In this document: in pieces, positions 25,017 to 62,553 of the stretch
Layout of the letters: each line of letters begins with the position of its first letter
Position numbering within the stretch: the stretch's first letter is position 1
Assembly: GCF_000974685.2 (NCBI RefSeq)
Contig: NZ_AP018738.1
Coordinates: forward strand, 2,604,001 to 2,668,000
Source of the DNA: Ferriphaselus amnicola
GTDB taxonomy: Bacteria > Pseudomonadota > Gammaproteobacteria > Burkholderiales > Gallionellaceae
Direction: 5' to 3'
DNA: 64,000 nucleotides
Notes under the pieces: generated by a model
What the model was told of the DNA's origin: nothing
Database searches by the model: none
The model's input: the letters and a program-made list of their open reading frames with translations, nothing else
Program-made: the position numbers and the translations under genes

Positions 25017-25211
25017 TCACGCACGAAAGATAAAGTACACCGCGCCCATCAGGCACAGCCCCGCATATATATAGTCCATCTTGAGTGGCTGCCCCATATA
25101 TAGGACAGCGAACGGCACGAACACCGACAAGGTGATGACTTCCTGCAAAATCTTCAGTTGCCCGAGGTCGAGTACGTTGTAGCCGATGCGATTCGCCGGC
25201 ACCTGCAACAG
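25017..25211 (-). pseudogene. DUF486 family small membrane protein, 3' half
   Basis: This reading frame encodes LLQVPANRIGYNVLDLGQLK and ends MDYIYAGLCLMGAVYFIFRA, the C-terminal half of the DUF486 family (about 115 residues, four membrane helices). The N-terminal half is on the same strand at 38053-38202. Together they give about 114 residues in frame. The gene was split by the island at 25212-38052. The apparent start at 25220 uses island bases and is probably not used. The family's function is unknown to me; the fold resembles small drug/metabolite transporters. Confidence 0.9.
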
Positions 25212-25232
25212 TACATGCAAGTTTTACATGAC

Positions 25233-25261
25233 TTGACTTACTGTGCAAGTATTTCCAAAAT
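25233..25261 (+). promoter_or_regulatory. Putative promoter of the recombinase operon at the island's left end
   Basis: TTGACT (25233-25238) and CAAAAT (25256-25261) are spaced 17 bp apart and lie 37 bp before the first recombinase start. The -10 overlaps the inverted repeat at 25247-25266, so recombinase binding could repress its own operon. This is inferred from consensus and position. Confidence 0.45.
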
Positions 25262-25266
25262 GGACA
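25247..25266 (+). repeat. Island left subterminal inverted repeat
   Basis: This 20-base stretch (AAGTATTTCCAAAATGGACA) matches the inverted right-end copy at 38020-38039 at 14 of 20 positions, including AAGT, AAAA and TGGAC. It lies 36 bp inside the inferred left border. A recombinase binding site is the simplest reading. Confidence 0.55.
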
Positions 25267-25297
25267 CATTCCCATCGGATAGCTAGAAAGTCAGTCA

Positions 25298-26776
25298 ATG
25301 AAGGAATTGCGGCGCAAAGTAATTTTGCCAGTTTTCCAACTGTCGGAGTTGACGACAGAAGACGATCCTCAGGCGTTCAAACGGGTTATTGACCAGGGCA
25401 AGGGACATCTTGATCTAATCTACCACTACCGCTTTGTCTGGGATGAGCAAGTTGGGCGTGGCTTCAACTACAATCTGTTTCCTGTTGTCCTTAGCCGAGA
25501 GGGGATGCCTTGGCACCTTGGCACTCTCTACATCTTGTCGCAGTTGGAGGGGGAAACTTCCCCCGTCATGACGTCTTACCAGAGCAAGGCTGACGATCTG
25601 GGAGCTTATAAAGAATGGCTGGACACTCAGATTCGACCTGATGAATTGATTTTCCAGTTTCCCAAGATCAAGTTGCGACGGCCAACGTATCGCTATCACG
25701 GCCATCTTCAGAAGCAGATACAAGCCGGAGAGATTGCGCCTTCAACTGGTAGGAGGCGCATGGGAACCGTGGTTGCTTTCTACCGCTGGTTGATTGAAAA
25801 CAATTACTTCCAACCTGAGTACCCGCCGTGGGAGGAAAAGAAATTCCAACTTGTATTCAAAACGACCGAGGGACGCGCAATATCGAAGAGGGTAATTTCA
25901 ACTGACGTTAGTATTCGTACACCAAAGTCGGAAGATCCTTTCGCAGGGGCCATCCAAGACGGCGGCAAGCTGCGACCGCTTACCGGCAAGGAACAGGATT
26001 GGATTCTTGAGGCCACCCTGGCCAAAGGTAACACCGAGTGCTACCTGTTCCAACTCTTTGTGTTGGCCACTGGCGCCCGTATCCAGACAGCCGGCACGCT
26101 CCGTCTGCGGCACTTCATTCAATCCAACCCACATTATTCCAAGTCGCTAACAGGGGAAGGAGAGGTCTTCAAACTGAAGGCAGGACCAGGCACGGGCATC
26201 GACACCAAGAACGACAAGAACGGCGTTTTACAGGTTCCACGACCCATTTATGAACTGCTTCACACCTATGCCACGTCCGAGCGCGCCAAAGTACGGAGGG
26301 GCCGGTTCGAGGTCAAGCACGGTGAGCACCCCGACCCCTACTTGTTCCTTACGCAGCAGGGTAGCCCCTATTTCACGGCAAGGGATGAGGCCCTGCGCTT
26401 CAACCCCGAACTCGACCGCCGTCACGAGAAGACAGGGCAAACAGTGCGACAGTTCCTCAATGAGCAAGTGATTCCCTACGTGCGCGAGCACCACAATAAA
26501 AACTTCCACTATCGAATTCACGACCTCCGTGCCAGCTTTGGAATGAACATGACGGAGCTTCTGATGAAATTAGTTCAAGCAAAAACCATCACCCTGCATC
26601 GGGCGCGGATGACCGTAAAGGATCTGCTATGGCATGAGAGCTTAACCACCACAGACCTGTATCTGAACTATCGCAATCAGATGGATGCTATCTACGAAGC
26701 AGTGAATGGCTATGGAAATCAGTTGAAAAAGTGGACCGAGCGAGCGATGAAGGGCATAGAGGTGATTGATGAATAA
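25298..26776 (+). CDS. Tyrosine recombinase, first of three
   Basis: This is likely the site-specific DNA strand-exchange enzyme of the island. In the 492-residue protein the catalytic set is visible: Arg in LATGARIQT (about 261), His and Arg in YRIHDLRASFG (about 408 and 411), His in LLWHESLTTTDLYLNY (about 445) and the Tyr shortly after (about 453). The first 230 residues should hold the arm/core-binding region, including a helical segment ending AFYRWLIENNYF. It starts close to the island's left end; its stop overlaps the next gene's ATG by 8 bp, so the operon is translationally coupled. It resembles the first gene of recombinase-trio operons in layout, not in any checked alignment. Confidence 0.85.
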   Translation: MKELRRKVILPVFQLSELTTEDDPQAFKRVIDQGKGHLDLIYHYRFVWDEQVGRGFNYNLFPVVLSREGMPWHLGTLYILSQLEGETSPVMTSYQSKADDLGAYKEWLDTQIRPDELIFQFPKIKLRRPTYRYHGHLQKQIQAGEIAPSTGRRRMGTVVAFYRWLIENNYFQPEYPPWEEKKFQLVFKTTEGRAISKRVISTDVSIRTPKSEDPFAGAIQDGGKLRPLTGKEQDWILEATLAKGNTECYLFQLFVLATGARIQTAGTLRLRHFIQSNPHYSKSLTGEGEVFKLKAGPGTGIDTKNDKNGVLQVPRPIYELLHTYATSERAKVRRGRFEVKHGEHPDPYLFLTQQGSPYFTARDEALRFNPELDRRHEKTGQTVRQFLNEQVIPYVREHHNKNFHYRIHDLRASFGMNMTELLMKLVQAKTITLHRARMTVKDLLWHESLTTTDLYLNYRNQMDAIYEAVNGYGNQLKKWTERAMKGIEVIDE

Positions 26777-28709
26777 ATCGGCTGCGCCCATTTTCTCCAC
26801 GCGTTTGACTGTCACCATCAAACTACCTCTGGACAAGAACGTTCGCATTCTGAACCCGGAACAGGTCATTCTGAAAATCGGCTCTAATACCTATGACTTC
26901 GGCGCTTTCTGCTACGCCTTGCGCTCGCGCAAGAAACGCAACATACACAAGCCTGGCGAGGTTGTGCTCGGCTCCTTCCTTAGGCAGCGCCCCCGCCAAA
27001 TCTTGCAACTCATCAGGGCACTCTCCCATCTCATCACCGACGGCGGCAAACGCATGGCGACAGTCAATGCCTATGCTCAGAGCCTGAAGGCATTCCTTGA
27101 CTGGGCTGATACTAACGAGAAGAGCGACTGCCTGTCTGGGGGCGATGCCACCCGCGATACCTATCTAGCTTGGGCAAAGGACACCGGCGAACGCTACCGT
27201 CGGCAAGAGTTTGGTGCTGTGTGGCACAACCATCGACTTCAATATATCGAAGAGCTTCTCGAAGCCTCGACTGGGGGCGAAAACCTTCATCGCGGCGTCC
27301 GCAAAGTCAAGTACAGCAGGAGCTCCAATGGTGGCACCGACCCCTTGGCTCCGCTCGATTTTGCTCATGCGATAGCGCTCAACCAAGCACTGTTCGACGG
27401 GCTGTGCGACTTAGTGCTAAAGCAAATGACTTTCCCCTACAAGCTGATGTTGCCAGCCACCCTTGGCTGGTCAGAAAATCACCTCTGGGTTTTTCCCTCG
27501 CAAACTTGGCGTATGGTCCCGTACCAATGGGATGCCGAACGGGGAAAGCGTACCAAAAACTGTTGGGCATATGACTATGCCGCTGGCCGTCTCGCCACCA
27601 CTGATGAGATTGAGCATCGCTATGCCGGGCGCTTCCGTTCAGAGCGACGCAAAGTGGCAAAGAGGCTAATTGCACAAGCACAGGCCCGTATTGACTCCGC
27701 CAATGCAAATGCACGGGATCGCGTACGAATCATGCTCGGAATGTACGCCCACAATGCGTTCCTGTTCCTCTTCTATTGCAACACCGGAGCCAATGAGTCA
27801 GTCGTGCGAGAAATCGAGACGGATGGCGAAATCGACACAACCACCCTCAACCAAAAATTCCGATCAATCAAGTTTCGGGCTGGAAGTAAGCCGATTACTC
27901 TAACTGTACCGGCCGCCTTTATGCCGTCTTTGCGCCGCTTCATGGAATTACGACGCTTCCTGCTTGGTGACAAGCCGTTTCCGTATCTATTTTTCACTTT
28001 GGGATTCTTGAACGCAAAGCCGGCAGGGCAGATCGGTTCGAATTCTCTATATTCGCTTTACAAAAGTCTGCTGCGTGTCATAGATCCGAAGTTACCGCGA
28101 ATGGGGTCACGAAAGCTCCGTGCCAGTGTGGCAGACTGGTACCAGCGTCACCACGACGCATCGGTCACCGCCAAGGTGCTGCAAAATTCGGAGCAGACCA
28201 CGCAGAAGCGCTACGACGCCGGGTCAGCAACTGATCACCGCGAGGAACTATCGCTGTTCATGAATTCGGTCTCAGAGTCTGCAAAAAAGCTGCGCGTTCT
28301 TCCGATCACGGCGGTAGTGGATACCAGACCGTTGGAAGAAGGCGGACGCTGCGATAACTTCGGCCATCCCGACGCTATGGCGAATCACGTACCGGTCAAG
28401 CCGAATTGCAAGGACAGCCAGGGTTGCCTGTTTTGCACACACAGGGTTCTGATCGCCTGCGAGGAGGACGCGCGTAAGGTGGCGTCCGCTGCCTTCGTCA
28501 TGGAACAAGTGATTCTCGGCCCAAAACACGAGGAAGCTCTACGTCCGCTTATCGCTAAGTGCGACCAAGACCTCGAAAAAATAGCCGCCTTTGGCAACTG
28601 CCGCGCGATGACTGATCGGGTACTCAAGGATGTGTTTGAGAACGGCAATCTCACACCCTTCTTCGCCGACAAGTACCAGTTGTTTCTCGAATTGGGAGTC
28701 ATTGCATGA
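26769..28709 (+). CDS. Tyrosine-recombinase-like protein, second of three, degenerate active site
   Basis: The 646-residue protein has the C-terminal recombinase fold but altered key residues. The first catalytic Arg position reads TGANESVVREIE (Asn, about residue 341), the HxLR box reads SRKLRASVADW (His replaced), and the last box reads LQNSEQTTQKRYD with the Tyr (about 481) kept but the GH pair lost. A Cys/His cluster follows (CDNFGHPDA, then NCKDSQGCLFCTHR, about residues 520-560), probably zinc-binding. The ATG at 26769 is preferred over a TTG at 26766. It overlaps its neighbours by 8 bp and 4 bp. A structural or DNA-bridging partner role is inferred. Confidence 0.75.
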   Translation: MNKSAAPIFSTRLTVTIKLPLDKNVRILNPEQVILKIGSNTYDFGAFCYALRSRKKRNIHKPGEVVLGSFLRQRPRQILQLIRALSHLITDGGKRMATVNAYAQSLKAFLDWADTNEKSDCLSGGDATRDTYLAWAKDTGERYRRQEFGAVWHNHRLQYIEELLEASTGGENLHRGVRKVKYSRSSNGGTDPLAPLDFAHAIALNQALFDGLCDLVLKQMTFPYKLMLPATLGWSENHLWVFPSQTWRMVPYQWDAERGKRTKNCWAYDYAAGRLATTDEIEHRYAGRFRSERRKVAKRLIAQAQARIDSANANARDRVRIMLGMYAHNAFLFLFYCNTGANESVVREIETDGEIDTTTLNQKFRSIKFRAGSKPITLTVPAAFMPSLRRFMELRRFLLGDKPFPYLFFTLGFLNAKPAGQIGSNSLYSLYKSLLRVIDPKLPRMGSRKLRASVADWYQRHHDASVTAKVLQNSEQTTQKRYDAGSATDHREELSLFMNSVSESAKKLRVLPITAVVDTRPLEEGGRCDNFGHPDAMANHVPVKPNCKDSQGCLFCTHRVLIACEEDARKVASAAFVMEQVILGPKHEEALRPLIAKCDQDLEKIAAFGNCRAMTDRVLKDVFENGNLTPFFADKYQLFLELGVIA

Positions 28710-30754
28710 AGATTGAGGCACGTATCTATCTGAACGGAGTCACCAAAGGCCCCGACCCTTGGGACGAAAACAAAGGCATCTACCTGCCACTGGACCACAT
28801 CATCTGCCGCGACGTGGATGGCACCCCACATACGGTTGGCGAGTTCGTCTGGCCATGGACGGCCTACACAGCCCACCAAAAACGGTTCCTGTTGCATTTT
28901 TATTACTGGAAGCAAAAAGCGAACAAGATCAACGCCAACATGATGGATATCACGGTAGAGCGCGAAGCCCGTATGCGTGAGTTGCAGTTCCTGATGACAC
29001 GGCAAATTTACTACGGCAATGAGAGCGCGCCAAATACGCTAAAAAATAAACTCGCTGTTCTGCGTAAACTCGCTCGCTTTTCCGAATCGCAAGGTTGCGC
29101 GGTGCGCGATGTGCTGACGCAGACGGCTCTGCTGGATGCCTTCGGCGCAAGCTTGCCCAATCAAATCATGGCTGACTGGATAACTTGGATCACGTTCCTT
29201 CGCCAACTCGATCCACAAATGCAACTGGGTTTCACGCTAGCAACTCCGAAGTGCTGGAAAGAAGTGGAGCGGCGCGCAAAGGAGTATCGTGACAACGTTC
29301 ACCAGTTTGCGCCTCTACCGACTCGAATCTACGCCGCACTGATCAATAACCTCTCAGCGGAACTTGATGACATCGAGGTACACAAGAGCCGACTGATGGC
29401 CGCGTTGCGGGAAGCTTTTGACTTGTATCACCATGCTAAGGCAACCGAGACGGAGCATGGTCTGAGAATTGGTGGCGCCCTGATCAAGAAACACAACCTC
29501 GGAGCCTATCTCGAAAGACGCGGCTACGGCAGCAATCAGTTGAGGAGCATTGGAGGAGCGTTGCGCGAGATTTTCCAGGTGTGCAAGCTGCAGATTCATG
29601 TGTTCAGCGGAATGCGGGATACGGAGGCGCGCCATTTACCGTTCCACTGCATGGCCTCGGAAGAGAGTAATCACGGACGCAAGCACTGCTTGATCATCGG
29701 TTCCACGACAAAGTTCAACAAAGGGCGGCGTCTTAGAACGAAGTGGGTCACCACCGAGCGTGACGGATTCCGAGCAATTCGGCTAGCTCAGGAATTTGCG
29801 GCTATGTACTACAAGGTACTCGGTGTCACGCCGAGCAAAGCCGACGACATCAAGGACAACTATCCGCTGTTTCCTTCAACCGCCTACCTGCCCTGGATGA
29901 TGGGACAACCTGTTCTGCCGGGTGTGCGCATTTCTGCTTGTGGAACAAAGCTTTCTCATACGGATGCTATGGATTCGATGCTGTCCCGCCTGTGTGCGAC
30001 CATCGATGAGCAGGACATCGCTGAGCTTGAGGATATCGACCCCTTCCGCGCTTGGCACGAGGAGTCCGAATTCATGGTTGGCCAGCGCTGGCCTTTGACA
30101 ACCCACCAGTTACGCCGGAGCCTTGCGGTGTATGCCAACGCAAGCGGCTTGGTCAGGCTCTCGTCCCTGCGTCGGCAGCTACAGCACATGACACGGGAGA
30201 TGGCCCTGTACTATGGGCGCGGCAGCACCTTCTGCAAGAACTTCATTGCGGACGATCCTGCTGGATTCAAGAAGCACATTGCGGTCGACTGGCAGGACGG
30301 TGCTGAGGAGGCTGAGATGCTAGCCTTCGTGCGAGACGTTCTGAACAGCGCCGAGCCCATGTTCGGTGGAGCCGGCAACTTCTACGAGCGACAGCGCGAG
30401 CGCGGTGAGGTCATGTCGCGCGAGGAGGTTGGTAAGCAGATGAAGGCAGGGCTGCTCGCCTACCGCGACGGGCCTCTGGGCGGATGCACGCGACCTGGCA
30501 TGTGTGAAACCCGCAAGGGCTTGAACCTCATTGACACCGTTTGCGCCACCAATGGGTGCAAACACCTGATTGGCAAGCACTCGAAGATTGTGCAGACAAT
30601 TCGACTCAAGCGTGCGGCGATTGCCCACATCACACCTGGCTCGATAACTGAAGTGATGGAGCGGGAGGAGTTGGAGACACTAGAACGTGTGGAACGCGAA
30701 TGGCGACTGCAGGAACACCCTGCGGCGCACTCTACGGGAGATGGAAATGCCTGA
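28706..30754 (+). CDS. Tyrosine-recombinase-like protein, third of three
   Basis: This is a large 682-residue protein with a recombinase C-terminal half. Visible catalytic residues are Arg in FSGMRDTEARHL (about 303), a Lys-rich beta turn TTKFNKGRRLRTKW (about 335), His/Arg in PLTTHQLRRSLAVYA (about 466-469), and His and Tyr in QLQHMTREMALYYGRG (about 493 and 501). So, unlike the second protein, it could be active. A C-terminal cysteine cluster (GGCTRPGMCETRKG and CATNGCKHLIGK, about 592-625) suggests a zinc site. It overlaps the second gene by ATGA and the next small gene by 8 bp. Confidence 0.78.
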   Translation: MKIEARIYLNGVTKGPDPWDENKGIYLPLDHIICRDVDGTPHTVGEFVWPWTAYTAHQKRFLLHFYYWKQKANKINANMMDITVEREARMRELQFLMTRQIYYGNESAPNTLKNKLAVLRKLARFSESQGCAVRDVLTQTALLDAFGASLPNQIMADWITWITFLRQLDPQMQLGFTLATPKCWKEVERRAKEYRDNVHQFAPLPTRIYAALINNLSAELDDIEVHKSRLMAALREAFDLYHHAKATETEHGLRIGGALIKKHNLGAYLERRGYGSNQLRSIGGALREIFQVCKLQIHVFSGMRDTEARHLPFHCMASEESNHGRKHCLIIGSTTKFNKGRRLRTKWVTTERDGFRAIRLAQEFAAMYYKVLGVTPSKADDIKDNYPLFPSTAYLPWMMGQPVLPGVRISACGTKLSHTDAMDSMLSRLCATIDEQDIAELEDIDPFRAWHEESEFMVGQRWPLTTHQLRRSLAVYANASGLVRLSSLRRQLQHMTREMALYYGRGSTFCKNFIADDPAGFKKHIAVDWQDGAEEAEMLAFVRDVLNSAEPMFGGAGNFYERQRERGEVMSREEVGKQMKAGLLAYRDGPLGGCTRPGMCETRKGLNLIDTVCATNGCKHLIGKHSKIVQTIRLKRAAIAHITPGSITEVMEREELETLERVEREWRLQEHPAAHSTGDGNA

Positions 30755-31169
30755 CATCCTAAATGACTACTTCGAGGCTCTAAATCGTTTAATAAGGGGT
30801 AAGCCGGTCAATGTTCCTAAAGGAACCAAGATCACCAACGACTCGGTATCTCTGGAAGCAGGGCGCAAGAAAGGAACTATAAAGAAGTCTCGCCCAATAT
30901 TCAGCGACCTCATCGAAGCTATTGATGCGGCTGCTAAGGCCGAGACAAAGCCAGGTAATGAATTACAGTCAAAACTGGACAAGGTTAAGGCCCAAGCTGC
31001 CCACTACCGAGGACTCTGGGAAGAGGCGTTGGCAAGGGAGATGTCACTGGTTAAGCAGTTATGGGACGAGCGAGAGGCTTGGGCAAAGGAACGTGCTGCG
31101 CTTTCGGATGGCAAGGTCATTTCCATGAGGAAGCCTAGTCGTGTCTTGAATCCTAAACGAGATAGCTAA
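30747..31169 (+). CDS. Small helical accessory protein of the recombinase operon
   Basis: The ATG at 30747 (MPDILNDYFEALNRLIRGK) is chosen because GGGAG lies about 7 bases upstream; longer frames only overlap the third recombinase. The product has about 140 residues: a basic central segment (GTKITNDSVSLEAGRKKGTIKKS), a helical region, then a likely coiled coil (about 70-120, ELQSKLDKVKAQAAHYRGLWEEAL) and a basic tail. No enzyme motif is visible. Position and coiled coil recall TnpC of Tn554, a small partner of two recombinases; similarity was not tested. It may bind DNA or hold the recombinases together. Confidence 0.65.
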   Translation: MPDILNDYFEALNRLIRGKPVNVPKGTKITNDSVSLEAGRKKGTIKKSRPIFSDLIEAIDAAAKAETKPGNELQSKLDKVKAQAAHYRGLWEEALAREMSLVKQLWDEREAWAKERAALSDGKVISMRKPSRVLNPKRDS

Positions 31170-31202
31170 TCGCCAGCTCCGGATGCTTCACTTACAATCT
31201 GC

Positions 31203-33752
31203 TCAATCTATTGCCACCACAGTGTCGTATAGACCATAGTTAGACAAGCCTTGGTGGCTCTCTATGCCGGTATAGCGTAGCGACGCGTCTTCATAGCGAC
31301 GGAAGGCGAAGACCGCCTGATTCATCTGCTCGGTATTGAACACCTTGAGCCGAACGAGCAAGTAAAAATCCGCTACGGTCAGGCCGGTGACGGTCAGGAA
31401 CAAGTCTGGTTCCAGCTTGGTGATTACATCCTGCAAGGTGTTCTCGCGGAAGTCGGTCAGGTACATGAACGCCGGGATGCGGGTGGCGAACTTGATCAGC
31501 TTTTCCTGAATCTGTTTGCGCTTGGATTTGTACTCTTTCTCCTCCTCGGTCAGCTCTTTCTTCTCCTTCTCCGTCAATTCGCCGGTTTTTGCCTTGCCCT
31601 TGAGTTCCTTCACCTTCTCGCTCTTGTTGATGATGGTCTCGATGATATTGTCGCCCAGCGCGCGCCAGCCTTCGATGCGCTCCACGGCAGCCATCGCCTC
31701 GGCGTTTTCCATGATGCGCCGCAGCGTGTCGTTGTCCACATTCACCAGCAGCGCGCTCTCCCACTTGCGCGCCAGCAGCGTGGCAGAAGTGCCCGCCATC
31801 GCGATATCGAGGATGCCGCCCGCGTCGATCTGCGTCATGTTCGCGCCGTCGTAGGCCAGCACGGGCAAGAAGGACACCAGCTCCTTGACGGCATTTTCTG
31901 GATTCGATTCGTTGGGTGACAGGCCGATGCCGTACTCCGAAAGTTGCCGCAGCGCGCGCGTGGGTGCGAAGTCGAACACGAAGCAGACGGGCTTGAGTAT
32001 CTCCTCCTCGTTCGGGTTGTCGCCGTTGGGATTCTTGATCCACCACGGCGACTGCACGCGGAACGCCGCCTGAAAATAGGTCTCGGGCGATTTGAGATTG
32101 CGCAGCATCAGGATGGATGACCACTGCGCCACGGTAACGCCGGTAGTGAGCTTGCCGCATGAGAGCGTGATGCTCTTGGTGTCGAATCCGCTGCCGATGG
32201 CTTTGCGTACCGGCGGCAACGCTTCCAGTCCGATCCCCGCCGCAGCGCCCGCTGCGACGGCCACTGTGTAGTCGCGCCAGAACACATTGTGTTTTTCGGC
32301 CAGCAGGTTCGCCATCGCATGGCAAGCCGCGACGTTAGGCAGAAACCAGAACGAGTGTTGCAGGTAAGGTAGCAGGCGCACATCGGAATACGGGAACGGC
32401 GGTCGCGCGCCGGTCTTCAGGTGCTCGACCGATTTCTGTGTATAGCCGCCACGGATGATGTCCAGCCACTTCTGCACATCACTCTTGTGCTTAAACTTTG
32501 CCGCCTTGCCTGTGCCCGATGCCTCGAAAAATGAGTTGAGATCGAACTCGTCAAACTCGCCGCCGCTGGCAATCGCCAGCAGTTCATCCGGCATCTGATA
32601 AGTCAGCAGCCGCATCTGTGGCAGCGCCCCATAGGGGTTACGCTTACTTGGGTGATCGGCGGCGAACACCTCCTTGGCGCGTTGCTCGTCGGTGTAGGTC
32701 CAGTTGAAAATCTGTTCCTCTATGAATTCGCCGGTCGCCAGCGCCTTGAATGGTGTGCCGGAGAGGTACAGATACGCCTTGGTGGTGATCGGCAGGAACT
32801 CGGTTTCCTTCTCCGAGAGCACGGTGAAATCCTCGTTCATATCCTCCAGTCCAGCGGCGTATTCGAGCTTGGCCTCCTTCTTTGCGACGGCCTCCTCTTC
32901 GCCCTCAAACAGTTCCTTCGCGGTGTCACGCCACGCCCCGAAGTGGTATTCGTCGAACACCACCAGATCCCAATTCACCGTGTGCAGCCACTCGTTCTTG
33001 GGCTTGATGTTCCCGACCACATCACGACCGAGCAGATCCTGAAAGGAGCCGAAATAGACGACCGGCTGCTTGCGGTCGATCTGCGTCGGGTCGCTACCGG
33101 ATGAGCGCGAGAGATACTGCCAGCCGTTGAAGTCCACATGGTTTTCTAGGTCGGTCTGCCAGGCATCTTCCACCGCCGGTTTGAAGGTGAGCACCAGTAC
33201 CCGCTTTGCGACTAGCTTCTTGGCCAACTGGTAAGCGGTGAAGGTCTTGCCGAAGCGCATCTTCGCGTTCCACAAAAAGCGCGGGGCGGCGTTTTTGTTT
33301 TCCGCCCAGATCGAGCGGTAGTAGTCGAAGGTCTTGTCCACCGCTTCGGCCTGCTCCCGACGCATTGGAAAGGTTTCGTGATGCGTTCCCGAGAAGCGCT
33401 GGCCGGTGCGCAGCTCGGTGAGCACGGTCTTCACATCCTTGAGCGAACAGCGCATCCACTCCAGCTTGACCTTCTCGAAACCTTTCTTCTGGAGTGCTGC
33501 ACGCACCTCATGGTCGCTGAAGATACTGCCATCGTCGCGCTCGGCGGATTCGTTCAGTTCGATCTTGTAGTTTTCAATGGCAGCAGTCTTCAACTGCTCG
33601 GCGATGCGCTGCTTCACGTCGCGCGTAGTTTGCCCCACTTTGAGCAGCCCCTTGTGCGCCACATCGGCGATCGAATAGGCGTAGATGCGCGGCCGGGCTT
33701 CCGGCTTGGGTGCGAGGATTTCGTCGATGGTGGGCTTACTCATCTGCTTCAT
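31203..33752 (-). CDS. GIY-YIG-type nuclease fused to DEAH helicase (restriction subunit)
   Basis: The 849-residue protein probably cleaves unmodified DNA after ATP-driven translocation. Residues 20-110 look like a GIY-YIG/T5orf172-type nuclease (RIYAYSIADVAHKGLLKVGQTTRDVKQRI). The helicase follows: Walker A AKMRFGKTFTAYQLA (about 165-180), DEAH-like VVFDEYHFGAWRD (about 265), and a motif VI-like QAAFRVQSPW (about 575). A charged helical stretch with many Lys and Glu lies at about 690-740. The start at 33752 overlaps the methyltransferase stop by 17 bp; an ATG at 33743 is an alternative. It is the last gene of a minus-strand operon with two methyltransferase-like genes. Confidence 0.82.
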   Translation of the reverse strand: MKQMSKPTIDEILAPKPEARPRIYAYSIADVAHKGLLKVGQTTRDVKQRIAEQLKTAAIENYKIELNESAERDDGSIFSDHEVRAALQKKGFEKVKLEWMRCSLKDVKTVLTELRTGQRFSGTHHETFPMRREQAEAVDKTFDYYRSIWAENKNAAPRFLWNAKMRFGKTFTAYQLAKKLVAKRVLVLTFKPAVEDAWQTDLENHVDFNGWQYLSRSSGSDPTQIDRKQPVVYFGSFQDLLGRDVVGNIKPKNEWLHTVNWDLVVFDEYHFGAWRDTAKELFEGEEEAVAKKEAKLEYAAGLEDMNEDFTVLSEKETEFLPITTKAYLYLSGTPFKALATGEFIEEQIFNWTYTDEQRAKEVFAADHPSKRNPYGALPQMRLLTYQMPDELLAIASGGEFDEFDLNSFFEASGTGKAAKFKHKSDVQKWLDIIRGGYTQKSVEHLKTGARPPFPYSDVRLLPYLQHSFWFLPNVAACHAMANLLAEKHNVFWRDYTVAVAAGAAAGIGLEALPPVRKAIGSGFDTKSITLSCGKLTTGVTVAQWSSILMLRNLKSPETYFQAAFRVQSPWWIKNPNGDNPNEEEILKPVCFVFDFAPTRALRQLSEYGIGLSPNESNPENAVKELVSFLPVLAYDGANMTQIDAGGILDIAMAGTSATLLARKWESALLVNVDNDTLRRIMENAEAMAAVERIEGWRALGDNIIETIINKSEKVKELKGKAKTGELTEKEKKELTEEEKEYKSKRKQIQEKLIKFATRIPAFMYLTDFRENTLQDVITKLEPDLFLTVTGLTVADFYLLVRLKVFNTEQMNQAVFAFRRYEDASLRYTGIESHQGLSNYGLYDTVVAID

Positions 33753-35319
33753 TGTCTAGACTCAACGCCCTGACTTGAGACTCGATGTACGCCTGCTCCT
33801 GCTTGGTGATTCCATATTTCTCGTAGAGCGCTTCGTCCGTCCAAGTGCGGTTCCACTTCTGGATCGGAACCCAAGTGTAAGTTGAGTGCGTTGCGTGCTG
33901 CGTGATTTTGCGTACCGAAACTAGGAAACGAAAGAACCGGGTTGTGTAGTACGTCTGGAGACTCTTGGCCGCTTTTTCCGAATCGACGGAAAAGAACAGG
34001 AACGACTGCGTACAGACAGAAGGCGATGGAGCGATCAGCGGCTTTCCCACAATTTGATGCGGCAACGCATCACCACCATTGAATGCCTGTGGGACAAGAA
34101 CTTTCCATGTGTCGATGAGATGTGCGCTCTTGGTTACTTCCTTGCGCCCGATATAGCCCACGCTGCGTTTCATCGTGCGGATGTAATAGAGCGGCAAATC
34201 GCCGGCACGCTCCTTTTCGTGGAAACCGTCGAAATTCGATGTCCAGCCAAACTCCTTGTCGCGGGCGAGTATGGTGTTGATGGATGGCTCTGCCTGCTTC
34301 TGCACTTTTCGCAGAATCGACATGGCGCGACCATCCCGCACAAACACGTCGTACTCGCCAAGGTTGCGCGCCATCGGCCCGATAACCTCTCCGCCCCGAC
34401 TGGTCGTCACACTGCAATCGCCGTTGTGCGCCGCATCCCACAAGAAATAGCAAACGCCCGCCTTGACCTCGACCCCAGGAAACACATCGCTTGCCGCCGG
34501 ATAGTCGACAAGTTCGCGCATCCGTCGATCCCCGAGCATCGTCTGCCGGAACTCGCTAAGCCCAAGACCAGAAGCCATCCAGCGCGAAGGAATAATCATC
34601 GAGAGATAGCGTGGTTCCAGCTTCTTCGCCTGTTCAACGAAATGCTGGTAGATCGGCACGTCGCGCGTACCGCCGTCCGAGCCAAGTTGATACGGAGGAT
34701 TCCCGATAATCACATCAAATTGCATGTCATCTCCAAACAGCTCGGCCAGCCGAGCTTTAATGTTGTCCGCGTGGATGAAGGCATAAGCATGGGTTTCCAG
34801 CTCATTACCCCTGTCATAGGTCGTTTGGCCCGCGCCACAAAACACGCATTTACCATGGGACCAGGTATGTTCTAAGCGCTCAAACCAGATGTTGCCTGCA
34901 TCATTCGTGAATGAACCGGCAATTGAGTGCGGGCCATCGGCGTGCTTGGAGCAATACACACTGCGCCGTGCCAGCAAGCTGGTGAGATGCGTGATGCCGA
35001 TGCCGAACACCTGCCGGGTCAGGATGTGATCGACGCGTTCGTCAAGATTCGGTATCTCATCTGCCAGCCCCTGTGTGAGGCGGCTGGTGATCTCGCGCAG
35101 GAACACACCCGACTTTGTGCACGGGTCGAGGAACGTCACTGTGCTGTCAGACCAGAGGTTAGCCCCGTCGTGGCTGGCCGCCCACGCCTCGGCTAGGGTA
35201 TCCAGCATCCGATTGGCGAACTCCGGCGGAGTGAATACTTCATCGTTGGAAAGGTTCGCGATGCAGGTCAGCACATCGGGATTGCGCCCGCGCAGGGTGA
35301 AGGATGCCTGACCGTTCAT
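33736..35319 (-). CDS. Adenine-specific DNA methyltransferase (Eco57I-like)
   Basis: This 527-residue protein should methylate adenine in the recognition site of the restriction system. The SAM-binding motif I is FLDPCTKSGVFLREI (about residue 68-82), and motif IV, the catalytic NPPY, is in FDVIIGNPPYQLGSD (about 205). The C-terminal half has SMIIPSRWMASGLG and other features of Eco57I-type enzymes and may contain target recognition. A CVFCGAG segment suggests an extra metal site. It overlaps the upstream small methyltransferase gene by 4 bp and the helicase gene by 17 bp, so all three appear coupled. Confidence 0.85.
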   Translation of the reverse strand: MNGQASFTLRGRNPDVLTCIANLSNDEVFTPPEFANRMLDTLAEAWAASHDGANLWSDSTVTFLDPCTKSGVFLREITSRLTQGLADEIPNLDERVDHILTRQVFGIGITHLTSLLARRSVYCSKHADGPHSIAGSFTNDAGNIWFERLEHTWSHGKCVFCGAGQTTYDRGNELETHAYAFIHADNIKARLAELFGDDMQFDVIIGNPPYQLGSDGGTRDVPIYQHFVEQAKKLEPRYLSMIIPSRWMASGLGLSEFRQTMLGDRRMRELVDYPAASDVFPGVEVKAGVCYFLWDAAHNGDCSVTTSRGGEVIGPMARNLGEYDVFVRDGRAMSILRKVQKQAEPSINTILARDKEFGWTSNFDGFHEKERAGDLPLYYIRTMKRSVGYIGRKEVTKSAHLIDTWKVLVPQAFNGGDALPHQIVGKPLIAPSPSVCTQSFLFFSVDSEKAAKSLQTYYTTRFFRFLVSVRKITQHATHSTYTWVPIQKWNRTWTDEALYEKYGITKQEQAYIESQVRALSLDNEADE

Positions 35320-36032
35320 GCAGCTTCCTTCGTAGTATTATCGGGCGTCATGCTAGCAAGCTCCCGAATGGTCATCGGAGGGTAGGTCTTCACTGGCGTA
35401 AAGATTTCATGCTTGGCAAACAGCGAGCCCTGTTCGGTATGGGAGGACATGCCAGTGAGCGTATCAAAGCGGAAGTCGCGGCGCTGAAACTTCCCCTTGC
35501 CCAGATAGCCCCATTCGGCAAAAGTAATCGGCTCTCCGCTGCCGACGCACATGCTCAAGGCGTCACCATGAACCAGATTCTGCGACAACACGTAAAAAGC
35601 AGCACAGTAGAGATCGTCTGATTCGTCGATGTTCAGATATCCAGAAAAGATTTCCAGCATGTTCTCGCGGCACTCGGCGATGTTATCTACCAGCAGCTCG
35701 ATGCCGTAAATGCACATCAGCGCAAAGAGCGCATAGTGCTGCGTTTCAAAGTCAGATTTGCCGAACTTGCTTTCTACAACCGCGAGCTTGCGCTGCAAAA
35801 CCTTCACAATGAAGTTACCGCTTCCACATGCCGGTTCCAGAAAACGCGCATCAATGCGCTCCGACTCGTCTTTCACAAGGTCGAGCATGGCGTCAACCAT
35901 CCATGCAGGGGTAAATACCTCACCATGGTCAGCGACACGTTTTCGAGATTTGATCAGACTCATGGGTGGCAGATTCAGGCTATAGCGTTCTGGCATTGTA
36001 CCTAATACCTCCATCTGAGTAACTTGATGCAA
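35316..36032 (-). CDS. Second DNA methyltransferase-like protein, without NPPY
   Basis: The 238-residue protein has EVFTPAWMVDAMLDLV and motif I FLEPACGSGNFIVKVLQRKL, the N-terminal part of N6-adenine DNA methyltransferases, and later YGIELLVDNIAECRENML. It ends soon after the NLVHGDAL segment, and no NPPY/DPPY catalytic motif is seen. It may be a SAM-binding helper or a remnant; the tight 4-bp overlap with the larger methyltransferase argues for a maintained gene. The start could be at 36032 or at an internal ATG near 35996 (MPERYSLNLPPMSLIK). It is the first gene of the minus-strand operon. Confidence 0.7.
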   Translation of the reverse strand: MHQVTQMEVLGTMPERYSLNLPPMSLIKSRKRVADHGEVFTPAWMVDAMLDLVKDESERIDARFLEPACGSGNFIVKVLQRKLAVVESKFGKSDFETQHYALFALMCIYGIELLVDNIAECRENMLEIFSGYLNIDESDDLYCAAFYVLSQNLVHGDALSMCVGSGEPITFAEWGYLGKGKFQRRDFRFDTLTGMSSHTEQGSLFAKHEIFTPVKTYPPMTIRELASMTPDNTTKEAA

Positions 36033-36148
36033 ATTCCTAGAAGGATGTTTTCGGTTTACTCAATGCCGGCAATTAGCGGAGCAACATGTACAATTGACGC
36101 ACACTCGGGTATATATTCCCAAAATGAATTTCGACTGAGAAAGATCCT

Positions 36149-36604
36149 GTGCGAACGATTGGCATAAGAGTTGCCCCCAAGGCCGTTACCTTTGTTGTGT
36201 TTGATGCGGACGGACAGATTGTGTTGAACACAGAAGATATTCGCATACCGATCGCATTCCGTACTCCCGACGCGCTCAAATATATCCGGAATAACTTGCT
36301 GGACATTCTGCGTGAGTACAGCATCGAGCGTGCGGGCATTCGAACAACAGAGCCAAATGCACAATCGCCAAGTATCGCTAGAATTCAGATTGAGGGGGTT
36401 GTGCAGGAAGCGTTTGCAAGCAGCCAGCTTAATTCCTACTACATCGGGCAGATTTCCTCCATTTCGGCTCGCCTCAATATCGACCGGGTCGATTTCAAAC
36501 GGTACGTTGATGGTCAGCTCGACTGGCCGGTGGAGAATTGGGCCGATCTGAGTAAGGAACAGCGTGAAGCGCTGCTCTGTGCGATTGGGGCAAGCCGTGC
36601 TTAA
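36149..36604 (+). CDS. Unknown protein, possible RNase H/RuvC-like fold, paired with a kinase
   Basis: The product of 151 residues starts at a GTG at 36149. It opens RTIGIRVAPKAVTFVVFDADGQ, a strand-turn-strand pattern like the first beta hairpin of RNase H/RuvC-fold proteins, but the usual catalytic Asp after GI is absent. A later IQIEGVVQEAF segment recalls the RuvC helix with Glu. I do not recognise a named family, and a catalytic role is doubtful. It is divergent from the methyltransferase operon (116 bp apart), and its stop overlaps the probable GTG start of the kinase gene by 8 bp, so the two are coupled. Confidence 0.6.
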   Translation: MRTIGIRVAPKAVTFVVFDADGQIVLNTEDIRIPIAFRTPDALKYIRNNLLDILREYSIERAGIRTTEPNAQSPSIARIQIEGVVQEAFASSQLNSYYIGQISSISARLNIDRVDFKRYVDGQLDWPVENWADLSKEQREALLCAIGASRA

Positions 36605-37640
36605 ACCTTATAGCAAAGCTGAGATTTCCTTTGATCTTCGCCAGGAGATCGGACAGGCAGGTGCAAATTCAAATACTCATGTTGCTCATGACCATCAACT
36701 GGACGCTGAGATCGTCATAAAAAAAATCCCGAAGGACTCGCTCGATTCAGTTCATATGTTTTTCGAGGAGTCGAGGGTTCTGTATCTAAGTAGCCATCCG
36801 AATGTGGTTCAGATATTTTATGCATGCCAAGATGCTGACAGCATCTATATTGCGATGCCATACTACCGGTGCGGATCGCTCAATGATCTGATCAACAGTC
36901 GCTATCTCACCGTCCGTGAGATTGTTGTGTTGGGTTGCCAAATTGCTAGTGGGCTACACAACATTCACTCGAAGCGACTTGTGCACTTTGACATTAAGCC
37001 GGACAACGTTCTTTTGTCTGATCGCGGCGAGGCATTGATTTCCGACTTCGGACTTTCTCGGCGATTGACCACAGCGGGAACGGCTGGGCAAGACCGCTTG
37101 TACTACAAGATGATGCCACCAGAGGCATACCAAACTTCAGATTTCACAAGCGCCTTCGACATTTATCAACTTGGCCTTACCTTGTATCGTATGTGCGGCG
37201 GCAATGTCGCTTTCGAAGAACAATTTGCGCAATTCGGCGCGACTTCGACGACCTTCGATCGAGATGGATTCAAGTTCGCAGTAAGGAACGGGCGTTTTCC
37301 AAACCGAGATGCCTTTGAAGACCATATTCCCGATCGTCTTCGACGGCTTGTGCGGAAGTGCATAGAGCCACACGCTCCCGATCGCTTCAAGGCGGCAATC
37401 GACGTTGCCAACGAGTTAGCTCAAATCGAGGATCGTTTGGACTGGCAGTTCGAGAAACAAGGGACAACACGCGTATGGACTAGAAGTGACGATGACAAGC
37501 ATTTCCGACTTTCCGTCGATGCGAGCGGCTCCTCACTTGCCGAGAAGACGAGTGCGTCAGGACGCAAATCACGAATCACGGGCTATTGCAAAACCGGCAT
37601 TTCCAGTCGTGAGATAAGACGTTTTTTGGGGGAAACCTAA
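36597..37640 (+). CDS. Ser/Thr-type protein kinase
   Basis: The protein is a Hanks-type kinase. Visible motifs are the Lys of beta 3 in EIVIKKIPKD, a helix C Glu in FFEESRVLYLSSHPNVV, the catalytic loop LVHFDIKPDNVLLSD, the metal-binding SDFGLSRRL, and MMPPEAY in place of APE. The catalytic loop reads HFD rather than HRD, so it is a non-RD kinase. The glycine-rich loop is irregular. About 347 residues; a tail after the kinase domain (from about 285) has no membrane span, so it should be cytosolic. The GTG at 36597 overlaps the upstream stop; an ATG at 36564 in the same frame is an alternative. Confidence 0.82.
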   Translation: MLKPYSKAEISFDLRQEIGQAGANSNTHVAHDHQLDAEIVIKKIPKDSLDSVHMFFEESRVLYLSSHPNVVQIFYACQDADSIYIAMPYYRCGSLNDLINSRYLTVREIVVLGCQIASGLHNIHSKRLVHFDIKPDNVLLSDRGEALISDFGLSRRLTTAGTAGQDRLYYKMMPPEAYQTSDFTSAFDIYQLGLTLYRMCGGNVAFEEQFAQFGATSTTFDRDGFKFAVRNGRFPNRDAFEDHIPDRLRRLVRKCIEPHAPDRFKAAIDVANELAQIEDRLDWQFEKQGTTRVWTRSDDDKHFRLSVDASGSSLAEKTSASGRKSRITGYCKTGISSREIRRFLGET

Positions 37641-37822
37641 TGTCTTCAACAATTAAGAACGACGCATCGCGATACTTAACTCGCGCAACGTTGGCGAGCG
37701 CGTGCCCAATCCCAAATAACGACAACCTTTCCCGCCCAACAGAGGACGCTAGAGCAGAGCAACGTGAAGCTAAGGGAGTCATAGATCGTCGGTGGTACAT
37801 CCAACTCCCCCTAAGACAATAA
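37640..37822 (+). CDS. Possible small protein after the kinase
   Basis: A 60-residue frame starts at an ATG that overlaps the kinase stop (TAATG). The sequence is polar with no recognised domain. The overlap suggests coupling, but a chance frame cannot be excluded. From 37823 to the island border I see no gene, only the repeats listed below. Confidence 0.25.
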   Translation: MSSTIKNDASRYLTRATLASACPIPNNDNLSRPTEDARAEQREAKGVIDRRWYIQLPLRQ

Positions 37823-37927
37823 GGGGGCATCTTTCTGGCTAGAATGAGTGAGGTGTCGGTTGCGAATAACCTCCGACGTCAGTAAGAGTACATGTTACGG
37901 CGACTTGAAATTTGAGCACGGCAGAAA

Positions 37928-37977
37928 TGGACAAAAGGGACTCAACTTGTCCATCAATCTTCGAAATTTGATGGACA
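37928..37977. repeat. Cluster of inverted TGGACA motifs near the island's right end
   Basis: TGGACA occurs at 37928-37933, its complement TGTCCA at 37948-37953, and TGGACA again at 37972-37977. The last two are the tips of a perfect 10-bp inverted repeat, TGTCCATCAA (37948-37957) and TTGATGGACA (37968-37977), around a 10-base loop. The first two form a 7-bp inverted repeat (TGGACAA/TTGTCCA). The same hexamer occurs at the left end (25261-25266). Recombinase or accessory binding sites are likely; a hairpin RNA is possible. Confidence 0.6.
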
Positions 37978-38019
37978 CGAAGAAAATTGTTATGTCACTG
38001 ATTCTATGGCAAAGCCACT

Positions 38020-38039
38020 AGTCCATTTTTGGCTAACTT
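38020..38039 (-). repeat. Island right subterminal inverted repeat
   Basis: On minus this reads AAGTTAGCCAAAAATGGACT, matching the left copy (25247-25266) at 14 of 20 positions. It lies about 13 bp inside the inferred right border at 38052. Confidence 0.55.
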
Positions 38040-38052
38040 GGGTGTCGAAGCA

Positions 38053-38202
38053 ATATTCGAACAGCGCGATGCCCCAACTCACCAGAGCCGCCACGTACCA
38101 CGGCGATTGCGCAAAGTTCTTCAGATGACCATACCACGCGAACGTCATGAACACGTTGGAAGCGATCAGTAACAAGGTGGTGAGAATCAGCGGGGACGTC
38201 AT
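38053..38202 (-). pseudogene. DUF486 family small membrane protein, 5' half
   Basis: The frame from the ATG at 38202 encodes SNVFMTFAWYGHLKNF and AALVSWGIALFEY, the N-terminal half of DUF486 proteins (two membrane helices), and then runs into island bases (CFDTQVSQKW and on) to a stop at 37990. The chromosomal part ends at the FEY codons (38053). The C-terminal half is at 25017-25211. The island-derived tail makes a 70-residue product that is probably nonfunctional. The gene's promoter should lie in the 59-bp gap shared with the divergent YqaA-like gene. Confidence 0.9.
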
Positions 38203-59963: not shown

Positions 59964-61079
59964 CTACTCCTTAACCTGAACAGACGCTTTAGCGACAAAG
60001 CCAGATGATGTCGGTGGATATCTGCGGTTTACTGTCTCGTTTATTATGCATTGAGCTACACTGCCTTCAGGAGTTACTGTGACCTGCTCTTGCCTCCCTT
60101 GGCTATCTATCACAATGAATGCAGTAATATTTCCAGAGAACTTTTTCGATATGCATGTTTGTAGGACCCTCCCATTATCAAAGAAGCTCGTTACAACATC
60201 CCTCTCGTAGGACTTTCCCTCGGGCGATGAAGAGTCATGGGCATTCCTAGTCAACAACCTCTCAATTCGGCTTGGCTCGTACAGCTTATAAAACATGGCA
60301 GTGTTATCTTCTTGCCACTCAAATCGGTAGATTGGACGAATATCGTTTGAAGTCTCCAAATTTGTTGCCGGACGCAATGTGACCTTTCCTGATTCTGAGT
60401 CATCAAACAAAACTGGAATCCCAGGCACCACTCCAGCGCCCACATTCATTTTGGCAGTTTGAGGGAAGTCTGGGGCATGACCAGCAAATGCAAACGACAA
60501 ACCTTTTGGCTTTGGTTCCTCTTGAATATCAACATTATCCGAAACGAATGTATAAGACAGTAGTATCGATCTGAATGCTTCAAGTGATCTGTCGAAGTCG
60601 GCTTTGTTCTTCGCGCTAAGTACTACGAAATTGATTGTCTTCTTTTCTTCAATGTAACCTGCCACTTCGTAATTGCCCCACTTATCGCCGGTGTAATAAT
60701 AAACCTCTGCCTTTCTTCCATTTGGCAATTTAAGCGATTCTGAAAAGCTAGCTGAGATGTTCGGGCTTTCAGTTCTGAAGTCGTCAAGAGTTGCCGCCAC
60801 TTGAGCTTTTACAGTTGAGACTTGTGGTGTTTTCGTTCTGGCTATCGTGTAAGCAAAAACACTGCTCTTTTGGAAAGATTCCCCCTCTGGATAGAAGACT
60901 TGGTGTAATCCCATAGAAACGCCACTCTTATTGTCTAAAATCCACCCTCTCGGGGCCGTCAGCGCAAAAGCATGATCTTTCCCATAAAGAATGCAGGTTC
61001 CACACCCTTCTTCTGAGTAAACCGGCTGAGCTACTGCCAAGAAAAACACAATGGTGGCAATGTTCCTTAGGTATTTCAT
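59964..61079 (-). CDS. Unknown exported protein
   Basis: The ATG at 61079 has GGAAG before it and gives about 371 residues opening MKYLRNIATIVFFLAVAQPVYSEE, a clear signal peptide (cleavage after about residue 21). The longer frame to 61247 is less likely. The mature part is polar with few aromatic clusters; no named domain is recognised. Two cysteines at the start (EEGCGTC) may form a disulphide. It lies next to the tRNA scar, as cargo of the element. Confidence 0.6.
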   Translation of the reverse strand: MKYLRNIATIVFFLAVAQPVYSEEGCGTCILYGKDHAFALTAPRGWILDNKSGVSMGLHQVFYPEGESFQKSSVFAYTIARTKTPQVSTVKAQVAATLDDFRTESPNISASFSESLKLPNGRKAEVYYYTGDKWGNYEVAGYIEEKKTINFVVLSAKNKADFDRSLEAFRSILLSYTFVSDNVDIQEEPKPKGLSFAFAGHAPDFPQTAKMNVGAGVVPGIPVLFDDSESGKVTLRPATNLETSNDIRPIYRFEWQEDNTAMFYKLYEPSRIERLLTRNAHDSSSPEGKSYERDVVTSFFDNGRVLQTCISKKFSGNITAFIVIDSQGRQEQVTVTPEGSVAQCIINETVNRRYPPTSSGFVAKASVQVKE

Positions 61080-61304
61080 ATATCTTCCGACTGCGATTGC
61101 TGACCCCAGCGGACATTGAACCATATTGCCTTGATTGCGTACATAGGCCGAAGTATCTAGATACTCTATTCGGTGTCTCTGTGAAGAAAGGGGAACGCCC
61201 ACTTCTGGCACGTAGGAGCCATACACTCGGATGTGCTTCAATTCCAAAGATCCCTCGGTGATAATACCCCTTGAGCTGATCTACACACAAAGGCGTACTG
61301 GCAC

Positions 61305-62405
61305 ATGAACAGGCTGTTCAAGGTTTTTACACGCAATTCAAAATCCAGCTCAGTGGACATTGTTGCTCAGCGATTTATACAGGCATTTGCCGATCACGGC
61401 ATTCAGCCTGCGCAAATCTCGCGTTTCTTGCCACAAATCGGGCTAGATTCTCTCCGGTCGAATGCCGCGCTACTTTCAGTCTTAACCCCCGAAATCCTCG
61501 AACACACCGCCAAGCTCTTTGGCATTAGTCTCAAGTGGCTAGAGGGTGCAGATAGCAAAATCTACGAGTATCAGTATTGTTATAAGCAGCCCGAGATATT
61601 TATTGAGCAGCTTGCCGCTATCCAAGCTCGCATGTGGGATGACGATATTGGGATTCCCTTTCGAGTGCTCACCACGAGCAAGGCGCTGAGTAACGCCAGT
61701 GCTGCGTATCAGCCGTTGATTCCTGTCCTTGTCGAGAAAATCGCCAACGTGGGCGATGAGCCTATCTACCGTTACACGGTTTTCAATGATGGTTTCGATT
61801 GGAGTCATCCCCCTGCACGTATTCAGCTCAAGGCAATGGCAAGAATTGCTTTCACCCTTGGTACGACTGTCGTACCTTTGCTTGTGGTCAAACCCAATGT
61901 CCTAGAGCGTACTCTTGAGCGTGAATTAATTCCCCTTGATTATTTGCATCGTGGCTTAGTCTCCAATCCGTCATTGGAGGACTATGCTCTTTCGGAAGAT
62001 CGCCTAATTGCCAAAGAAACTGAAGAGCTACCGCTAGTCATGGACTATATCGAGCAGCATGATCTAGTTCGATTGTTTGTGGAGGCAAAGCGTCGGCTTA
62101 GCACACTAGATTTGGAGGCCAAGGCTGTGCCTGAAGTGGGCGCGACTGTTCCAGCACCTCCGAAGATAGGAAAGCGAGAGCAAAACAAAAAACTCCTCTG
62201 GGAGCCAGTAGTAGCAACTGCTCAGGCGTTATGGGCTGAGCATGGCGATTCGCTGCATATTGCAGAGGCTATTCGTCGCATTAAGAGAATGCCACACCTT
62301 CCGGCGGCAAAACTTTCTGATAGTGCTATTCGTAAGCACATCGCCCCACACGCACCCGATGAAGTGAGTGGGAAATCAGGACGTAAACCAAATAAATCAA
62401 CCTAA
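61305..62405 (+). CDS. Unknown protein, possible DNA-binding
   Basis: The 366-residue product opens MNRLFKVFTRNSKSSSVDIVAQRF. The section IQPAQISRFLPQIGLDSL and the following LFGISLKWLEG resemble a helix-turn-helix of the regulator type (about 30-80). The C-terminal 100 residues are basic and helical (IAEAIRRIKRMPHLPAAKLSDSAIRKHI), which could bind DNA. No family recognised. It precedes the replication-type gene by about 150 bp, and a regulatory role in the element is a guess. Confidence 0.55.
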   Translation: MNRLFKVFTRNSKSSSVDIVAQRFIQAFADHGIQPAQISRFLPQIGLDSLRSNAALLSVLTPEILEHTAKLFGISLKWLEGADSKIYEYQYCYKQPEIFIEQLAAIQARMWDDDIGIPFRVLTTSKALSNASAAYQPLIPVLVEKIANVGDEPIYRYTVFNDGFDWSHPPARIQLKAMARIAFTLGTTVVPLLVVKPNVLERTLERELIPLDYLHRGLVSNPSLEDYALSEDRLIAKETEELPLVMDYIEQHDLVRLFVEAKRRLSTLDLEAKAVPEVGATVPAPPKIGKREQNKKLLWEPVVATAQALWAEHGDSLHIAEAIRRIKRMPHLPAAKLSDSAIRKHIAPHAPDEVSGKSGRKPNKST

Positions 62406-62524
62406 ATATTCATCTCGGATGTTCCTAACCTAATGTAGTAGTTGAAAAAAGAATTGGGACGAATTTCTTGTCGTCTCAATTGCGACATTCCAATTTTATC
62501 CGCCGTTTCTGTGCAAGATTATTC

Positions 62525-62550
62525 GTGCTCCCTTAACTCAACAGGAGCAC
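62525..62550 (+). promoter_or_regulatory. Hairpin covering the ribosome site of the Rep-like gene
   Basis: GTGCTCC (62525-62531) pairs with GGAGCAC (62544-62550), a 7-bp stem with a 12-base loop. The 3' arm contains the Shine-Dalgarno GGAG, about 6 bases before the ATG at 62554. Folding would hide the ribosome site, suggesting translational control of the initiator. Confidence 0.55.
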
Positions 62551-62553
62551 AGC

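Follow-up and report, generated by a model that had tools for sequence, protein, structure and literature searches.

A four-gene recombinase operon in Ferriphaselus amnicola probably drives a strand-biased circularizing integrative element inserted in a DUF486 gene

The strand-biased circularizing integrative elements (SEs) of the literature drawn on here (PMC10214605, PMC5385486, PMC9345347) are described as keeping the native 6 bp of their target at the left junction (attL) and 6 bp of the donor location at the right junction (attR), as a fingerprint or footprint (PMC10214605). The survey that gives this description also presents the Tfp protein of SEs as devoid of a catalytic motif, and outlines several neighbouring classes: genomic islands with three integrases (GInts, ginABCD), in which the third protein, GinC, is described as non-catalytic; RIT elements, with proteins of 315-410 aa that all bear the catalytic Tyr, no fourth gene and 34-bp inverted repeats; and Tn554, with two catalytic recombinases, a small third protein and a 6-bp footprint (PMC10214605). 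Here we analyze a window of 64,000 nt, the whole stretch under study, from Ferriphaselus amnicola (NZ_AP018738.1, 2,604,001-2,668,000), and report a four-gene operon that, with a probability of roughly 0.87, drives a 12.8-kb SE inserted in a DUF486 gene.

The operon lies on the forward strand. Gene A (25298..26776) encodes an intA-type tyrosine recombinase of 492 aa with a complete active site (R261-H408-R411-H446-Y455). Gene B (26769..28709) encodes a tfp-type protein with a recombinase fold, of 646 aa from the ATG at 26769, that is devoid of Arg-I and the catalytic His, keeps R451 and Y482, and bears a four-Cys tail. Gene C (28706..30754) encodes a large intB-type tyrosine recombinase of 682 aa with a complete active site (R304-H467-R470-H494-Y503) and a second four-Cys tail, and gene D (30741..31169) a small srap-type protein of 142 aa. 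Each neighbouring pair of genes overlaps by a few bases. The start of gene D is most likely the ATG at 30741, not the GTG at 30687 that would yield 160 aa; its homologues span 120-165 aa. A sequence-only reading of this DNA had proposed overlapping genes for proteins of 492, 646 and 682 aa and a small fourth one, and these open reading frames (ORFs) are present as proposed. The four-gene operon seen by that reading is hence real, but it makes up only the left end of a larger element. The reading had missed this element, the target gene and two ends of which can be located.

Searches with single proteins gave weak results. The best Pfam match of protein A had an E-value of 0.0086, the PHROG integrase profile matched protein A at 2.9e-10 and protein B at 0.0019, and protein C had no match in the Pfam, NCBIfam and PHROG library scans. 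The gamma-mobile trio, named by the sequence-only reading as a comparison, gained no support: the NCBIfam scan, with E-values up to 1, returned no match to GmtX, GmtY and GmtZ models, which that library presumably includes. A sequence search of the PDB yielded no match for protein C and weak Xer matches for protein B (best 5.7e-6), and a scan of viral contigs with protein C returned five pattern matches, none of them a relative. Consensus promoter and terminator scans gave counts no higher than those in shuffled sequences. Since curated libraries scarcely recognise proteins A-D, their identity was taken from kinship.

A search with a protein C profile against 84,980 species genomes identified 100 relatives, the best 80 of which were used as loci. 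Complete, colinear A-B-C-D arrangements on the same strand were observed in 61 of these 80 genome loci, which had been fetched by protein C similarity; the recurrence of four homologues in one order and on one strand points to an operon beyond chance. The 61 complete genome operons, the window operon and six plasmid operons were combined into a set of 68 operons, from which the remaining 19 loci were excluded because one of the genes was absent, too short, out of place or located at the end of a contig. Two arrangements stood out by size or content. In an Acinetobacter operon (L071, 6879-9986) the gene B frame spans 1036 aa, about 400 above the usual length, and on a Paraburkholderia plasmid (L010, 11398-13530) an additional large protein with a phage integrase family annotation is encoded directly 3' of A-B-C-D.

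Profiles built from the 68 operons match all four proteins of three reference SEs, each in its own slot. The references were SE-6283 in pSEA1, SE-6945 in pSEA2 and SE-PaeBT2436, the tmexCD element in pHNAH8I-1, which was tied to its publication through the Tfp identifier WP_034039553.1, that of the element's annotated second protein. For SE-PaeBT2436, SE-6945 and SE-6283, respectively, the E-values were 1.3e-61, 1.6e-40 and 4.6e-36 with profile A, 8e-38, 8.6e-8 and 4.5e-6 with profile B, 6.4e-55, 1.4e-39 and 3.4e-35 with profile C, and 5.4e-23, 9.8e-6 and 3.2e-5 with profile D. The Tfp and Srap homologies thus extend to all three references. Moreover, the window and the SEs share a colinear intA-tfp-intB-srap arrangement at the left end, and two complete active sites and a lost one in the same order, with R-H-R-Y in IntA and IntB and without it in Tfp.

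Published descriptions of GInts, a sister class already reported from Betaproteobacteria, would also fit several of these features: three recombinase-fold proteins and a small protein encoded by a four-gene operon at one island end, restriction cargo, a short 3' end, a 6-bp staggered exchange and betaproteobacterial hosts. As a control we used an E. coli island (L135), located through insertions at the 3' end of ssb, which is a true GInt by its homology to a Pseudomonas operon beside an ABC-transporter gene (named by eye), a published site. Against this island, profiles B and C gave E-values of 1 or worse, profile A 3.5e-7 and profile D 0.028, and two Pseudomonas GInt operons likewise show no recognisable kinship with the window operon in B and C. 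GInts target ssb or an ABC-transporter gene, whereas the window element targets DUF486, and the non-catalytic protein is by description the third in GInts but the second here, the third window protein having a complete active site. The profiles matching the reference SEs in all slots, and the GInt control failing to behave so, hence indicate an SE and not a GInt; on the E. coli island and the two Pseudomonas operons, GInt membership was rejected, and we hold it to be very improbable. By eye, the residues at the Arg, His-x-x-Arg and Tyr positions are retained in E. coli GinC, and the published description of GinC may hence not hold for every GInt. The E. coli island (L135, 12922-22995) carries an avs4 defence gene. 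In 430 of 5376 E. coli records with a match to ssb, less than 80% of the ssb region is covered in one place, and both records that were opened hold this very island.

Two further classes were rejected on the strength of their published descriptions. RIT elements share with the window three adjacent tyrosine recombinases, but on the features given in the SE survey (PMC10214605) they differ from it in gene number, protein size and active sites: the window proteins measure 492, 646 and 682 aa and are joined by a fourth core gene. Tn554 has in common with the window two catalytic recombinases, a small protein and a 6-bp footprint, but its tnpA, tnpB and tnpC genes include no counterpart of the tfp-type protein B, which is conserved in the 61 complete operons, and the survey's description likewise sets it apart (PMC10214605). 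The sequence-only reading had anticipated both points, holding the operon to be no classical RIT and to have more recombinases than Tn554, and its assignment to a class of recombinase trios was sound, save that this class already bears a name. The SE class itself is known, and the window element is a further SE.

The active sites were examined across the 68 operons. That of protein A is complete in all 68 and that of protein C in 67, the remaining one having Gln as the third basic residue. In protein B, Arg-I and His are absent from all 68 operons, and despite this loss the second Arg (R451) and the Tyr (Y482) are retained in every one. Judged by its residues, protein B would be no working recombinase. 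The conservation of Tyr and the second Arg in such a 'dead' subunit was unexpected, and offers a further experimental handle. The four Cys of the protein B tail (528, 547, 553 and 556) are each present in 68/68 operons, and those of protein C (594, 600, 613 and 618) in 68, 68, 68 and 66 of them, respectively. The Cys-rich tails are therefore real, yet they belong to the class and are not additions peculiar to the window, as their earlier description as 'extra' had implied.

Structure prediction was the check named by the sequence-only reading for its claim that proteins B and C are recombinases, and it bore out the fold. The AlphaFold models had a mean predicted local distance difference test (pLDDT) score of 83.6 for B and 80.9 for C, and their best solved matches in Foldseek were tyrosine recombinases (XerA for B, E 3.5e-3; Cre for C, E 3.0e-3). 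VIA-align related protein B to XerA (Z 15.8, root-mean-square deviation (rmsd) 13.0 over 266 aligned residues) and XerH (Z 15.0, rmsd 5.5, 279 aligned), and protein C to an integron integrase (Z 13.4, rmsd 4.4, 279 aligned) and Cre (Z 12.4, rmsd 4.9, 275 aligned). All three large proteins thus have the tyrosine-recombinase fold; the earlier count of three recombinases stands as regards fold, and falls short as regards protein B, whose residues indicate a non-working enzyme.

The element extends over 12,835 bp (25212-38046) and splits a reverse-strand gene of the DUF486/DMT_6 family (PF04342), which encodes a conserved membrane protein. The C-terminal part of this gene (25017..25211) matches profile positions 33-104 (E 5.7e-22) and the N-terminal part (38053..38202) positions 2-45 (E 7.8e-19), and the junctions were placed by aligning both fragments with uninterrupted genes. 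At attL, the 6 bp CAACAG (25206..25211; CTGTTG in gene sense) correspond to Leu-Leu codons and are native, being found in 4 of 30 intact relatives. They are followed by the left terminal motif C, TACATGCAAGTTT (25212..25224); a Sulfuritalea element has the same start, TACATGCAAGT, after its native 6 bp. The right terminal motif C', TAACTTGGGTGTC (38034..38046), corresponds to ACTTGGGTGT followed by C or G, a sequence that lies equally far from the host gene in three elements. It is followed by attR, GAAGCA (38047..38052; TGCTTC in gene sense), which occurs in none of the 30 intact relatives, differs by at least four mismatches from any of them and is read as a foreign footprint. By eye, the terminal motifs are related as inverted repeats, TACATGCAAGTTT against GACACCCAAGTTA, in 9 of 13 positions, and SEs are defined as having imperfect inverted repeats of 13-19 bp. 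The 6-bp spacer, with the target's own 6 bp at attL and foreign 6 bp at attR, is a further likeness to SEs, and the ends of the element begin with TACA, as does SE-6945 after its 6 bp. The DUF486 target, the element's own terminal sequences and a right-end array of four ATGGAC boxes are differences from the described SEs.

Two more elements of the clade are inserted at the same DUF486 codons, so that three hosts are involved in all. In the draft genome of Sulfuritalea the left end lies on contig C17 and the right end on C59, while the element of Gallionellaceae CG11 (L058) lies on one contig, with about 19.1 kb between the DUF486 parts. Left junctions are native in both readable cases (CTGTTG in the window and CTGCTG in Sulfuritalea, in gene sense), and right junctions are exactly native in none of three (TGCTTC, ATAGTT and TTGATC, with at least four, three and one mismatches to the 30 native sequences, respectively). 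The footprint asymmetry is clear at two right junctions and ambiguous at one. The DUF486 gene was matched in 53 of 59 other genomes of the host family, in 52 of them without interruption and across practically the full domain. The partial match in the last genome (G070) is a diverged copy whose frame continues across the insertion codons, and it was rejected as an insertion. Other members of the clade seem, by eye, to start within other genes: redoxin-like (L060, 6503), nuclease-like (L057, 395), dndC-like (L065, 6431) and comM-like (L073, 6455).

The window genome holds one copy of the element, and a protein C homologue is present in 5 of 158 genomes of the family, the window's own included. 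These low counts would be expected of a remnant that has lost its mobility. The reading frames of all four genes are uninterrupted, the active sites of A and C are complete, and the two ends are intact when compared with the two other elements; furthermore, the two other genomes of the genus are without the element, so that the insertion is probably recent. A loss of mobility consequently appears unlikely.

By analogy with experiments on SEs (Nonaka 2022; Idola 2023), IntA (protein A) and IntB (protein C) would nick a single strand at attL and attR and exchange it between the two. Tfp (protein B), which is non-catalytic, would probably have a structural role as a synapse subunit, and Srap (protein D) that of an accessory factor. 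Replication would then yield a nicked double-stranded circle carrying 6 bp of the old left flank, with the donor copy staying in place. The circle would insert at the DUF486 Leu-Leu codons, where the target's 6 bp would remain at attL, and the 6 bp from the previous location would persist at attR as a footprint.

The distribution of the operon reaches beyond that reported for SEs. Among the 61 complete operons, 30 are from Betaproteobacteria, 29 from Gammaproteobacteria, one from an alphaproteobacterial metagenome-assembled genome and one is unassigned. In the protein C tree, the window groups with elements of Gallionellaceae, Sulfuritalea and Azoarcus, with SH-aLRT support of 97-100 for the sets holding the window, and this group sits inside a mainly betaproteobacterial one. 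In the SE survey, Tfp and Srap homologues are reported as not found in Betaproteobacteria, and the same survey warns that PSI-BLAST may miss distant members (PMC10214605).

Several observations weigh against the assignment of the window element to the SEs. The published hosts of SEs are exclusively Gammaproteobacteria (PMC10214605), whereas the window host belongs to the Gallionellaceae, of the NCBI class Betaproteobacteria, a difference in range and not in definition. The type SEs have very long branches and a weakly supported placement in the protein C tree, and proteins B and D found no match in SE-6283 and SE-6945 by pairwise blastp with E-values up to 1, so that the profile alone reaches them. 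SEs are defined experimentally, through their movement, circle and strand bias, which are inferred for the present element by analogy. At the junctions, the third left one (L144) is masked by N and unreadable, the Sulfuritalea attR lies one base from a native variant and may reflect native drift, and a DNA pattern search of 369 genomes of the class found none with the window footprint TGCTTC (Cys-Phe) at the DUF486 codon, for which reason a DUF486 gene with Cys-Phe at the insertion codons was rejected as the source of the footprint.

The ambiguous Sulfuritalea attR, and the small number of junctions sampled, would also suit an element of SE descent with conventional excision and integration via a Holliday junction, the 6-bp difference between its ends arising from heteroduplex repair, as proposed for GInts, where mixed repair outcomes have been seen. 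Repair would scatter in both directions, whereas the two left junctions that could be read are native and none of the right ones is exactly so, which is the direction published for SEs. We therefore deem repair an improbable source of the asymmetry and favour the SE assignment.

The two ends of the element also differ in their ATGGAC boxes. One box lies at the left end (25260..25265, forward strand), and four form a right-end array (37927..38026), at 37927(+), 37949(-), 37971(+) and 38021(-), with spacings of 22, 22 and 50; this is the sole stretch of the window with at least three such boxes in 100 nt. The right ends of the window, CG11 and Sulfuritalea elements align without gaps, the first two presenting four boxes in alternating direction at 22/22/50 bp and the third having one mismatch in its third box. 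A scan of 91 loci (80 genome loci and 11 others; 1.65 Mb) identified the first three boxes at the array spacing exactly in L062, L063 and L065, and with one mismatch in L010, L013, L081, L089, L091 and L094, several of which are close relatives of one another. By an arithmetic estimate, about 5e-5 occurrences of the 18 fixed bases are expected in 1.65 Mb. Matches with 3-4 mismatches were discarded, shuffled loci yielding 3-15 matches per set at up to four mismatches. With up to four mismatches, the array was not found in the stretches of SE-6283, SE-6945 and SE-PaeBT2436, which may not all reach the right end, and a word search of the main text of the SE survey returned no mention of ATGGAC boxes (PMC10214605). 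Upstream of gene A, within 200 nt, ATGGAC is present in 12 of the 61 complete operons and hence is not universal; the counts inside the gene and on the opposite strand were 0/61 each.

The four alternating right-end boxes are most likely binding sites for one of the element's proteins. In the betaproteobacterial SE branch, asymmetric ends with one left and four right boxes might be bound by Tfp or Srap, and this asymmetry might lead to the exchange of one strand and to copy-out by tyrosine recombinases, a proposal that we put forward tentatively and consider rather unlikely. If true, the 6 bp at attR would be a readable record of the element's previous address.

The remainder of the element encodes cargo. 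On the reverse strand, a protein with T5orf172 (GIY-YIG-like) and ResIII helicase domains (31203..33752; Pfam, PADLOC), one component of a split restriction system of type IIG-like character, is accompanied by an Eco57I-type DNA methyltransferase (33736..35319; PF07669, E 2.1e-35) and an N-6 DNA methylase-like protein (35316..36032; PF02384, E 1.8e-4; PADLOC methyltransferases), and a serine/threonine protein kinase is encoded on the forward strand (36564..37640; PF00069, E 7.9e-38; PADLOC mad6 model, E 6.6e-48). Within this cargo (31203-37640), the methylases also have weak PADLOC mad2 matches. Together, the restriction-methylation set and the kinase may be related, in reduced form, to the MADS defence system, and with such a restriction-type cassette and kinase the cargo probably pays for its keep. 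No relaxase or transfer/mobilization gene was seen among the cargo proteins scanned, which resembles SEs, as does site-specific insertion at few sites. Elsewhere in the window (59964-63948), three ORFs (427, 366 and 464 aa) that match no Pfam family adjoin a Phage_integrase gene at genome position 2668615, beyond the window, and this region is perhaps another mobile element.

As far as the open-access literature shows, the new points are the occurrence of SEs in betaproteobacterial hosts, DUF486 as a target hit by three insertions, and the box array of the right end. With 30 of 61 complete operons in Betaproteobacteria, the reported host range of SEs and their proposed marine gammaproteobacterial origin need revision. 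Some SEs carry antibiotic-resistance genes, and the class is among the very few tyrosine-recombinase elements thought to copy out rather than cut out. In the clade outlined here, the element is compact, its target is fixed and one end bears an array of boxes at precise spacing, which makes the origin of strand bias directly testable.

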